Below, piece by piece: positions 38,319 to 61,475 of a stretch of DNA of 64,000 bases (positions are counted from its first letter, which is position 1; each line of letters opens with the position of its first letter). The translations under genes were made by a program, and so were the position numbers. The DNA is from Methylibium petroleiphilum PM1. GTDB lineage: Bacteria; Pseudomonadota; Gammaproteobacteria; Burkholderiales; Burkholderiaceae_C. Under the pieces are notes generated by a model that was not told the origin of the DNA, did no database searches, and worked only from the letters and a program-made list of their open reading frames with translations. The DNA lies in NCBI RefSeq assembly GCF_000015725.1, contig NC_008825.1:1364001-1428000 (forward strand). The letters are read 5' to 3'.

Positions 38319-38394
38319 GCGGGAATAGCTCAGTTGGTAGAGCGCAACCTTGCCAAGGTTGAGGTCGCGAGTTCGAGCCTCGTTTCCCGCTCCA
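38319..38394 (+). tRNA. tRNA-Gly(GCC)
   Basis: 76-nt tRNA with encoded CCA. Acceptor GCGGGAA/TTCCCGC, D-arm AGCTCAGTTGGTAGAGC, anticodon stem-loop CAACC-TTGCCAA-GGTTG (anticodon GCC), T-arm GCGAG-TTCGAGC-CTCGT. First tRNA after lon. Confidence 0.97.
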
Positions 38395-38479: not shown

Positions 38480-38553
38480 GGCGCGGTAGCAAAGCGGTTA
38501 TGCAGCGGATTGCAAATCCGTCCAGGGCGGTTCGACTCCGCCCCGCGCCTCCA
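38480..38553 (+). tRNA. tRNA-Cys(GCA)
   Basis: 74-nt tRNA with encoded CCA. Acceptor GGCGCGG/CCGCGCC, discriminator T, anticodon stem-loop CGGAT-TGCAA-ATCCG read as loop TTGCAAA (anticodon GCA), T-loop TTCGACT. The U73 discriminator is the cysteine identity base. Confidence 0.97.
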
Positions 38554-38641: not shown

Positions 38642-38973
38642 GCCTCGATGGCGAAATTGGCAGACGCAGCGGACTTGAAATCAATTTGAGCGCCCGCGCG
38701 GAAACGCGCGGGATGAATCCCGTCAAATTCGGAGAACCCCCTGCGGTGCGTTACGCATCGCGAGGCAACGCCGAGCCAAGCCGCAGCCGGGCCGGGGCGG
38801 AAGGTGTAGAGAGCGGACGGCGGGCACCTAAGGCGCAAGCGATGGTGAAGGCGCGCTCCAGACCCCGAACGCGTACAGCGCTGGCTGCGCGCGGCGGCGA
38901 AAGCCGTAGCAGGTAAGAAAATCCGCCGGACCCTGACCGGTCCATCCCGGTTCGATCCCGGGTCGAGGCACCA
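38642..38973 (+). tRNA. tRNA-Leu(UAA) interrupted by a group I intron
   Basis: Exons 38642-38676 and 38918-38973 total 91 nt and fold as a class II leucine tRNA: acceptor GCCTCGA/TCGAGGC, leucine-type D-arm GGCGAAATTGGCAGACGC, long variable arm CCGGACCCTGACCGG, T-arm CCCGG-TTCGATC-CCGGG, encoded CCA. Joined after 38676, the anticodon arm reads GCGGA-CTTAAAA-TCCGC, anticodon TAA. The unspliced DNA shows CTTGAAA, which mimics a Ser(UGA) anticodon but lacks the 3' stem strand next to it. The intron sits between anticodon bases 34 and 35, the position used in cyanobacterial tRNA-Leu(UAA). This gene supplies the UUA/UUG decoder only if splicing works. Confidence 0.93.
38677..38917 (+). ncRNA. Group I self-splicing intron (IC3-like), 241 nt, no homing-endonuclease ORF
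   Basis: The 5' exon ends in T and the intron ends in G, as group I chemistry requires; the guide GAG (38688-38690) can pair with exon CTT, giving the G-U pair at the splice site (P1). P2: CCCGCGCG-GAAA-CGCGCGGG (38693-38712). P3: CCCGTC 38719-38724 with GGCGGG 38819-38824. P4: TTCGG 38728-38732 with CCGAG 38771-38775. P5: GCGGTGCG-TTA-CGCATCGC, about 38743-38761. P7: GAGCG 38811-38815 with CGCTC 38854-38858. P9: CGGC-GAAA-GCCG 38895-38906. Unpaired core words such as GTCAAATTCGG and GAAGGTGTAGAGA resemble, from memory, the Azoarcus tRNA-Ile intron, while P3 and P7 differ by compensating changes. The longest reading frames here are shadows. Confidence 0.93.
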
Positions 38974-60853: not shown

Positions 60854-61475
60854 ACGACGCCGCTGCCTGCATCGCCTCGTGCAGGTGGGGGCCTGGCTGG
60901 CGCTGGGAGCGCCCGGCGTGGCGTCGGCCGCGGGGCCGGTCTTCGAGTTGCCGGAGCTGATGGCGCTGCTGGCCCGCCAACGCAGCGGCGAAGCCCGCTT
61001 CACCGAACTGCGCCATGTGCAGGGCCTGGATCAGCCGCTGGAAGCCAGCGGCACGCTCAGCTTCGCGGCGCCGGACCGCTTCTCGCGGCAGACGCTGAAG
61101 CCGCGCCCCGAATCGATGGTGGTGGAGGGCAACACGCTCACCATCCAGCGCAGCGGCCGCAGCCGCAGCTTCGCGCTCGACGCGACGCCCGAACTGGTGG
61201 CGCTGGTGGAGGCGGTGCGCGGCACGCTGACCGGCAACGCGCAGACGCTGACGCGCTATTTCCGCACCACGCTCGCTGGCAGTGCGGACAAGTGGACGCT
61301 CGACCTCGTGCCGGCCGACAGCCGGCTGGCGGGCCAGGTGCGCAGCGTGCGCATCGCCGGCCAGCAGGGCGCGCTGTACAGCATCGAGATGCTGCTGGTG
61401 GGCGGTGACCGCTCCGTGATGAGCATCGAACCGCTGCCCGCCAGCGCGTCGGCCTCGGCCCCGGTGCGGCCCTGA
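60837..61475 (+). CDS. LolA-like outer-membrane lipoprotein carrier
   Basis: 212 aa with a signal-peptide-like N-terminus (CLHRLVQVGAWLALGAPGVA) and a LolA-type beta-barrel part (EASGTLSFAAPDRFSRQTLK, DKWTLDLVPADS). Probable periplasmic shuttle for the polyene lipid. ATG at 60837 with GCGAGG upstream; an ATG at 60819 is an alternative. The gene overlaps its upstream neighbour by 17 bp and the stop overlaps the exporter start (TGATG). Confidence 0.82.
   Translation: MHPVVERRRCLHRLVQVGAWLALGAPGVASAAGPVFELPELMALLARQRSGEARFTELRHVQGLDQPLEASGTLSFAAPDRFSRQTLKPRPESMVVEGNTLTIQRSGRSRSFALDATPELVALVEAVRGTLTGNAQTLTRYFRTTLAGSADKWTLDLVPADSRLAGQVRSVRIAGQQGALYSIEMLLVGGDRSVMSIEPLPASASASAPVRP

Follow-up and report, generated by a model that had tools for sequence, protein, structure and literature searches.

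A group I intron in the anticodon loop of the resident tRNA-Leu(UAA) gene of Methylibium, and its possible relation to integrative elements that carry split tRNA-Leu genes

The resident tRNA-Leu(UAA) gene of Methylibium petroleiphilum PM1 almost certainly (probability about 0.95) carries a self-splicing group I intron between U34 and A35. The gene lies in the window analysed in this study, a stretch of 64,000 nucleotides that covers positions 1364001-1428000 of a 4,044,195-base contig; the second contig of the genome has 599,444 bases. The boundaries of the intron, its covarying structure, its homology to an intron recognised by the curated model RF00028, and its inheritance in the genus are established by computation. 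It is a further member of an intron kind that is already known.

The 241-nt intron starts with GAAAT, finishes with GTAAG, and is inserted between CTT and AAAA of the loop (Table 1). With introns allowed, ARAGORN reported tRNA-Leu(taa) i(36,241) in the window, and the joined exons (91 nt) were folded into a complete cloverleaf with a long variable arm, the loop CTTAAAA, and an encoded CCA. This agrees with an earlier reading of the sequence only, in which removal of 38677-38917 was said to leave a full tRNA-Leu with the anticodon TAA in that same loop. The default tRNA scan of the window listed Leu(UAG), Gly, Cys, and Pro and missed the split tRNA-Leu(UAA). The spliced exons were also aligned with 11 tRNA-Leu(UAA) genes of relatives that have no intron, and all of these lack the 241 nt. 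The order Gly, Cys, Leu of the tRNA cluster is retained in two intron-less relatives (L016 and L018), and extra Gly genes are found inside the cluster in other relatives (e.g. L020 and L024). Apart from this cluster, a 92-nt tRNA-Pro(ggg) was called by ARAGORN at window positions 60871-60962, where RF00005 has no match; another tRNA-Pro(ggg) lies at C1:2015503, and the call in the window is probably false.

Table 1. Window coordinates of the split tRNA-Leu(UAA) gene, of the two tRNA genes clustered with it, and of the intron helices.
Feature	Position	Strand	Evidence
tRNA-Gly(GCC), gene 1 of the Gly-Cys-Leu tRNA cluster	38319-38394	+	tRNA scan
tRNA-Cys(GCA), gene 2 of the Gly-Cys-Leu tRNA cluster	38480-38553	+	tRNA scan
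tRNA-Leu(UAA) 5' exon, last base U34 (first anticodon base)	38642-38676	+	
Group I intron, 241 nt, terminal G at 38917	38677-38917	+	ARAGORN; models R1 and R2
tRNA-Leu(UAA) 3' exon, AAAA first, CCA encoded	38918-38973	+	
P1: exon C38674-U38676 with G38688-G38690; inside the intron 38677-38679 with 38685-38687	38674-38690	+	
P1 splice-site pair	U38676.G38688	+	U.G in 50/50 rows
P2 hairpin, GAAA loop; outermost pair unshared	38693-38712	+	
P3 5' strand, partner 38819-38824	38719-38724	+	100% paired, 5/6 pairs double-changed
P4 5' strand, partner 38770-38774	38729-38733	+	Window pairs and 50-row counts
P5 plus extension (extension unconserved)	38739-38765	+	Pairs of the window sequence
P6 plus loop	38781-38800	+	Window pairs and 50-row counts
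P7 5' strand, partner 38854-38858	38811-38815	+	100% paired, 3/5 pairs double-changed
P8: 38825-38828 with 38844-38847	38825-38847	+	100% paired, 3/4 pairs double-changed
P9.0: 38862-38864 with 38912-38914, around the P9 hairpin	38862-38914	+	Window pairs and 50-row counts
P9 hairpin, GAAA loop, enclosed by P9.0	38895-38906	+	

The structural features of a group I intron are found: a core of P3, P4, P6, P7, and P8 with the P3/P7 pseudoknot, the U.G pair in P1, and the terminal G38917. The class is presumably IC3-like, of the bacterial tRNA type, and G38811-C38858 in P7 is taken to be the guanosine-binding pair. The helices named in the sequence-only reading (P2, P3, P4, P5, P7, and P9) are all present in the window sequence; so are the U before the intron, the terminal G, and the P1 guide with its G-U pair, which is seen in all fifty introns compared. 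P3 of the window is CCCGTC/GGCGGG and P7 is GAGCG/CGCTC. The outer P1 pair is A.C, and the fifth pair of P4 is A.G, where 48 of 50 rows have a standard pair.

For the structure count, the group I helices were written with the P3/P7 pseudoknot over 50 diverse introns (alignment A1), leaving out as unshared the P5 extension, the inner part of P8, and the first P2 pair. Pairing was observed in 95.9% of 2341 cells, as compared with 83.1% in shuffles and 27-44% in slid versions; both sides were changed in 278 cells against 76.9 in shuffles, and none of the 500 shuffles reached the observed value on any measure. P3, P7, P8, and P9 are paired in all 50 rows, and the many double changes bear out the covariation that had been claimed for P3 and P7. 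P7 indeed varies among the introns, with types including GACTA/TAGTC and GAGCG/CGCTC. Since the relatives were retrieved by a pattern containing the 5' exon and GAGCCAAGCC, conservation on the 5' side of P1 and the 3' side of P4 is partly by construction; P3, P7, P8, and P9 are outside the pattern and thus free of that selection. The G before AAAA in 130/130 extracted introns is the extraction rule itself and therefore no evidence. The folding energy of the single sequence is ordinary for its composition (z -0.86).

After transcription, the intron would fold into its P3-P9 core, and an exogenous guanosine bound in P7 would attack after U34, which the U.G pair of P1 would hold in place. The freed exon end would then attack behind G38917, the last base of the intron, and the ligated tRNA of 91 nt would be matured. 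Splicing in vivo may well proceed without help.

A match to RF00028 had been suggested as a check on the intron, and it failed: there was none in the window at the gathering score, none on 441 nt around the intron up to E=10, and none in the whole genome. This failure is outweighed by the other evidence. On 20 loci with related introns, only the tRNA-Leu intron of Sphingobium cupriresistens (L074) was matched by RF00028 (62.8 bits, cut-off 50) and the other 19 were missed; therefore, the miss of the window reflects the reach of the model, and the threshold of a curated model is no defining feature of the RNA itself. The window intron can be aligned with the S. cupriresistens intron over its full length (alignment A1). 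Model R1, which includes the window, gave it 181.5 bits. Model R2 was made from 35 introns (alignment A2) without the window and without rows known as betaproteobacterial, four of its rows being MAGs titled merely Proteobacteria or proteobacterium. The 15 of 50 A1 rows dropped for A2 are the window, the betaproteobacterial L007, L009, L010, L011, L014, and L126, the window-like L120, and seven others picked unsystematically. With hits allowed to E=10, R2 matched the window once only, at 38667-38927 (156.1 bits, E=1.2e-50), so that the homology to other tRNA-Leu introns holds with the window left out of the model. Overall, the ARAGORN call, the structure counts over 50 introns, and the R2 score uphold the identification of a group I intron in the anticodon of tRNA-Leu(UAA).

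Intron-bearing tRNA-Leu(UAA) genes are present in all six Methylibium genomes, that of strain PM1 included. R1 matched 49 of 300 genomes of the order and 42 of 398 Pseudomonadota genomes, with the own genome and other tRNAs counted in both surveys. Among 30 loci fetched from the survey of the order, 16 were tRNA-Leu(UAA), one Leu(CAA), one Arg(CCU), and one Pro; ten were without the motif used for reading the anticodon, and L212, which had been read as Phe, is actually a Leu(UAA) gene. An exact-pattern scan of named genomes gave at least 120 loci, and among the matches listed about 110 belong by title to Proteobacteria, seven to Acidobacteria, and three to Bdellovibrionota. The earlier statement that the known tRNA introns of proteobacteria are in tRNA-Ile and tRNA-Arg is thereby corrected. 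A careful tree was built from 150 introns, of which 139 are different; as its bootstrap did not converge, the support values are rough. Some of the nine Methylibium rows represent one genome taken from two collections; together the nine make up a clade (98/94) nested in a 28-row clade (100/99) that includes four tRNA-Leu(CAA) introns. Judged from these sequences, the intron is inherited within the genus.

Group I introns of bacterial tRNAs include those of Azoarcus tRNA-Ile and Agrobacterium tRNA-Arg, which differ from the present one in the tRNA that is split. A tRNA-Leu(UAA) intron was reportedly described by Vepritskiy in 2002 from a deep-subsurface gammaproteobacterium; it is presumably in the same gene and host phylum as the window intron. 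The core motifs of the window intron are likewise taken to be like those of the cyanobacterial tRNA-Leu(UAA) intron. According to passages of PMC2729099, the cyanobacterial intron occupies the same tRNA and the UAA anticodon region, has a similar size (250 nt in Anabaena), and was shown to self-splice. The window intron differs from it in host lineage and in its GC-rich sequence.

Several related sequences were noted on the side. A related group I intron splits a tRNA-Arg(CCU) in a genome of the window's family (G025, L032:1462-1766, read by eye). A Burkholderiales MAG (L126:3-1734) has, in a row, an integrase of the family A described below (cut off by the end of the locus), a split tRNA-Leu(UAA), part of an integrase, and a split tRNA-Leu(CAA); the introns of the two tRNA genes are in different parts of the tree. 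In the phage collection, a single phage (two records) had a weak match: Gordonia phage Daredevil (NC_048021.1:41848-42108) matches positions 25-288 of the 332-nt split gene at 67%, with no annotated feature there, and perhaps has a phage tRNA with a related intron. On plasmid pCTX-M3 (L001:3995-4292), an entire tRNA-Leu(UAA) split by a group I intron of 213 nt lies near aac(3)-IId and is without an annotated feature among the 25 rows listed. At least 80% of this sequence is found in 1257 of 72,556 plasmid records, 1273 of 1280 matching plasmid records are at 99% or more, and its upstream flank resembles, by eye, the one in the rhizobial element L067.

The genome of strain PM1 has 58 tRNA matches to RF00005. 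As read by ARAGORN at these stretches, the other Leu anticodons are UAG, CAA, CAG, and GAG, of which the last three occur twice; the second copies sit in a 27-gene array on the 599-kb second contig (L185, 243.4-248.1 kb), which is without tRNA-Leu(UAA). The check for another tRNA-Leu(UAA) elsewhere in the genome was run with ARAGORN at the RF00005 stretches, a degenerate pattern, and R1, and none was found: the degenerate pattern gave one Leu(CAA) gene and the split tRNA-Leu(UAA) only, and R1 gave one match over the whole genome, the window intron. Therefore, the reading of UUA should depend on splicing, and this part of the suggested dependence of the cell stands; its extent is small, however, since UUA is very rare. 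There were none among 17,195 codons in 41 window ORFs, which were picked by high GC3, a choice that disfavours UUA, and 19 among 115,535 codons in 280 ORFs from 464 kb (window included), some of them near ORF starts possibly set too early. It seems from these counts that splicing would be needed by the cell, though for few codons. Dependence of much translation on the split tRNA-Leu is ruled out, as UUA is too rare. A 30-nt copy of the 3' end of the tRNA-Leu, 97% identical, was also seen at C1:2073455-2073484 (L200:156-185) and is possibly an old attachment remnant.

For the presence of the intron at this site, two explanations appear to have weight. The first, with roughly even odds, is that of a neutral intron, either immobile or moving by reverse splicing, which favours anticodon loops by chance and is inherited vertically in Methylibium, with the elements as occasional passengers only. 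It fits the small size of the intron, as 241 nt would not hold a homing endonuclease gene, and the listed ORFs across the intron extend through the neighbouring tRNA genes. The clade structure matches the genus, most copies are without mobile context in the available DNA, and tRNA-Arg(CCU) and tRNA-Leu(CAA) genes were found to have introns of this kind as well. However, this explanation leaves the exact coincidence of the intron site with the attachment core of nine elements, served by two integrase families, unexplained.

The second explanation, put tentatively at somewhat under even odds, is that the intron was kept or introduced owing to its position, which splits the 7-bp crossover site that integrative elements use in the anticodon loop: introns of the same family would mask the replacement tRNA-Leu genes carried by elements, and the resident gene of Methylibium would become a non-target. 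Its basis is a set of 123 intron-bearing tRNA-Leu(UAA) genes at 121 loci (the 120 matches listed and the plasmid locus L002). Upstream on the same strand, 15 of these genes have an intron-less tRNA-Leu(UAA) 5' half broken off in the anticodon loop; a member or remnant of a tyrosine-recombinase family (family A) lies upstream of 19, and nine have both. The gap between the end of the integrase A and the tRNA is 3.6 kb in L101 and 16-191 nt in the other 18. The remaining 108 genes, which count against masking, have no broken half within the available DNA, but the loci are of 8 kb or less and the absence of a broken half or an integrase therefore means little. Together with L212, L312, and L313, there are 18 distinct loci in which a broken intron-less 5' half is followed downstream by an intron-bearing tRNA-Leu.

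The matching 3' half was found for seven loci of the sample. With the broken 5' half, its acceptor strand forms 7/7 base pairs and its anticodon strand 5/5, and the anticodon strand misfits the carried tRNA (e.g. AGGGA/TCCCT versus GCAGA in the carried gene). For L074 and L109 the 3' halves are on other contigs, with two candidates for L074, and likely pair with their attL. CTTAAAA is common to attL and attR of all seven elements, and exactly these 7 nt are shared in four. When two elements from the survey described below (genome G694) are added, all nine share the whole CTTAAAA or CTCAAAA, five of them exactly 7 nt. Spans of the intron-carrying elements are 35-67 kb, e.g. about 34.6 kb in AGun1 and 40.8 kb in Methylocapsa, with both ends on one contig, and, by coordinates, about 58 kb in Enterovirga and about 50 and 59 kb in two acidobacteria.

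The two integrase families are distinct. Family A members from Sphingobium and an acidobacterium are 52% identical, only 2 of 12 members reach the Pfam Phage_integrase cut-off, and of four relatives found on plasmids, three have an annotation as integrase; NCBIfam gave nothing for two family A integrases, and a search for solved structures of the family found none. Integrase B in four rhizobial elements lies about 180-250 nt from attR, at the far end from the tRNA; that of AGun1 scores 70.5 bits with Phage_integrase and is 22% identical to A over 122 residues. Genes for ArdC and for ParB-like and VirB4/TrbE-like proteins are among the cargo of AGun1 (10 of 22 listed ORFs scanned). Tahibacter (L092) has what resembles a late stage of such an element, with a decayed integrase lying between tRNA genes in the order Gly-Cys-Gly and a tRNA-Leu(UAA) split by an intron.

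The integrases were also surveyed in 398 Pseudomonadota genomes selected irrespective of introns. Integrase B (E 1e-80) was found in five genomes as eight copies, two of which adjoin tRNA-Leu 3' halves, one UAA and one CAA. Both are in G694, a genome of the window's own family that has exactly two introns, at the far ends of these two elements. At the first site, a resident Gly-Cys-Leu cluster is cut in the loop of tRNA-Leu(UAA), followed by an intron-bearing tRNA-Leu(UAA); at the second, the broken gene is a tRNA-Leu(CAA), and an intron-bearing tRNA-Leu(CAA) comes after it. The cores are CTTAAAATC and CTCAAAA, and the spans 51.6 and 66.9 kb. Both introns fall in the 28-row clade of the window (100/99), which favours masking. 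A distant copy (L305, 40% identical) adjoins an apparent tRNA-Met half cut in the anticodon loop (by eye), and for the other five no tRNA half was found by the patterns used.

Integrase A (E 1e-60) was found in six genomes as nine copies. One is beside an intron-bearing tRNA-Leu(UAA) (L280) and one beside an intron-less tRNA-Leu(UAG) (L276). G586 has tandem integrase-A genes with an intron-less replacement tRNA-Leu(CAA) (L279) and a broken Leu(CAA) half (L272). Four copies are next to a tRNA-Met, which is before and never after the integrase, and copy L277 has no tRNA neighbour. These intron-less and tRNA-Met sites argue against masking, since they indicate that the intron is not required by integrases A and B. 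Searched for introns, the 11 genomes with these integrases gave two in G694, one each in G586, G686, and G376, and none in the other seven. Other points against masking are that the element label shows no clustering on the careful tree, where 101 of 500 shuffles were as low, and only a mild one on a quick tree (17 of 500), and that the genome of strain PM1 has no match to integrase A and none to integrase B at E 1e-80. Archaeal tRNA genes with introns, moreover, serve as integration sites and are not always closed to integration by the intron (Krupovic 2019, via passages of PMC8371274).

A recent arrival of the window gene on an element was also considered and is ruled out. Its 5' exon is native-like (32/35 identical to an intron-less relative and 25/35 to an element-borne tRNA), 88 nt separate it from tRNA-Cys, and neither a broken tRNA-Leu half nor an integrase was found beside it.

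If masking is true, insertion of the element into the 7-bp anticodon loop would destroy the tRNA of the host, for which the element would bring a complete, intron-split substitute. As stated in excerpts of PMC8371274, the 7-bp anticodon loop corresponds to the overlap region of tyrosine recombinases. Since the intron splits this loop and the RNA is repaired by splicing, the target should vanish: the spliced RNA would work, and neither the integrase of the element nor those of rival elements would find a target in the DNA any longer. The element architecture is shown by the sequences themselves, and masking is inferred. It is conceivable, with the balance slightly against it, that group I introns in proteobacterial tRNA-Leu(UAA) and tRNA-Leu(CAA) are masks of attachment sites and that the Methylibium intron is an inherited protection against such elements.

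Similar arrangements are known in part. In the tRNA-borne islands of Islander, as far as excerpts of PMC4383910 describe them, a tyrosine integrase and anticodon-loop attachment sites are used as here, but the attP tRNA fragment restores the gene, whereas the elements described here leave their target broken and substitute a whole intron-split tRNA for it. Passages of Sugahara 2012 (PMC3293823) describe a mobile element that delivers an intron-bearing archaeal tRNA-Thr, for which intron delivery and protection were proposed; there, too, an intron reaches a tRNA attachment site by an element, but that is an archaeal intron inside attP, and in the present elements the group I intron is part of a whole additional tRNA gene. 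Protection from integration was proposed for archaeal tRNA introns by Randau and Soll, as told in a part of PMC4390854. In the literature searched, with subscription journals largely outside, no description of intron-bearing tRNA genes on bacterial islands was found, and no report proposing protection or delivery for bacterial group I introns. Split replacement tRNA-Leu genes on elements whose attachment core contains the intron-split loop were likewise not found in print in these searches.

An archaeal-type intron is ruled out by 241 nt with a group I core, and a decayed intron in a pseudogene, with UUA unread, is very improbable: the rarity of UUA and the A.C in P1 and A.G in P4 would suit it, but the cloverleaf is intact, the core pairs are complete, the intron is in 6/6 genomes of the genus, and the family covaries.

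The self-splicing group I intron in the resident tRNA-Leu(UAA) of Methylibium is a betaproteobacterial case that extends over the genus, and the one decoder of UUA that was found would have to be spliced. Its intron family was matched in about one in ten Pseudomonadota genomes, other tRNAs included, and most members tried are overlooked by RF00028 (1/20 loci recognised) and default tRNA scans. Islands of the kind described here should likewise evade finders that seek a restored tRNA gene and one fragment, as may be gathered from excerpts of PMC4383910. If masking is true, there would be a selective reason for tRNA introns in anticodon loops, bacteria would have their own form of the protection put forward for tRNA introns of archaea, and the archaeal idea would become testable with two bacterial integrase families. 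The lasting interest is in the site and the clade that the window intron and the element-borne copies have in common.
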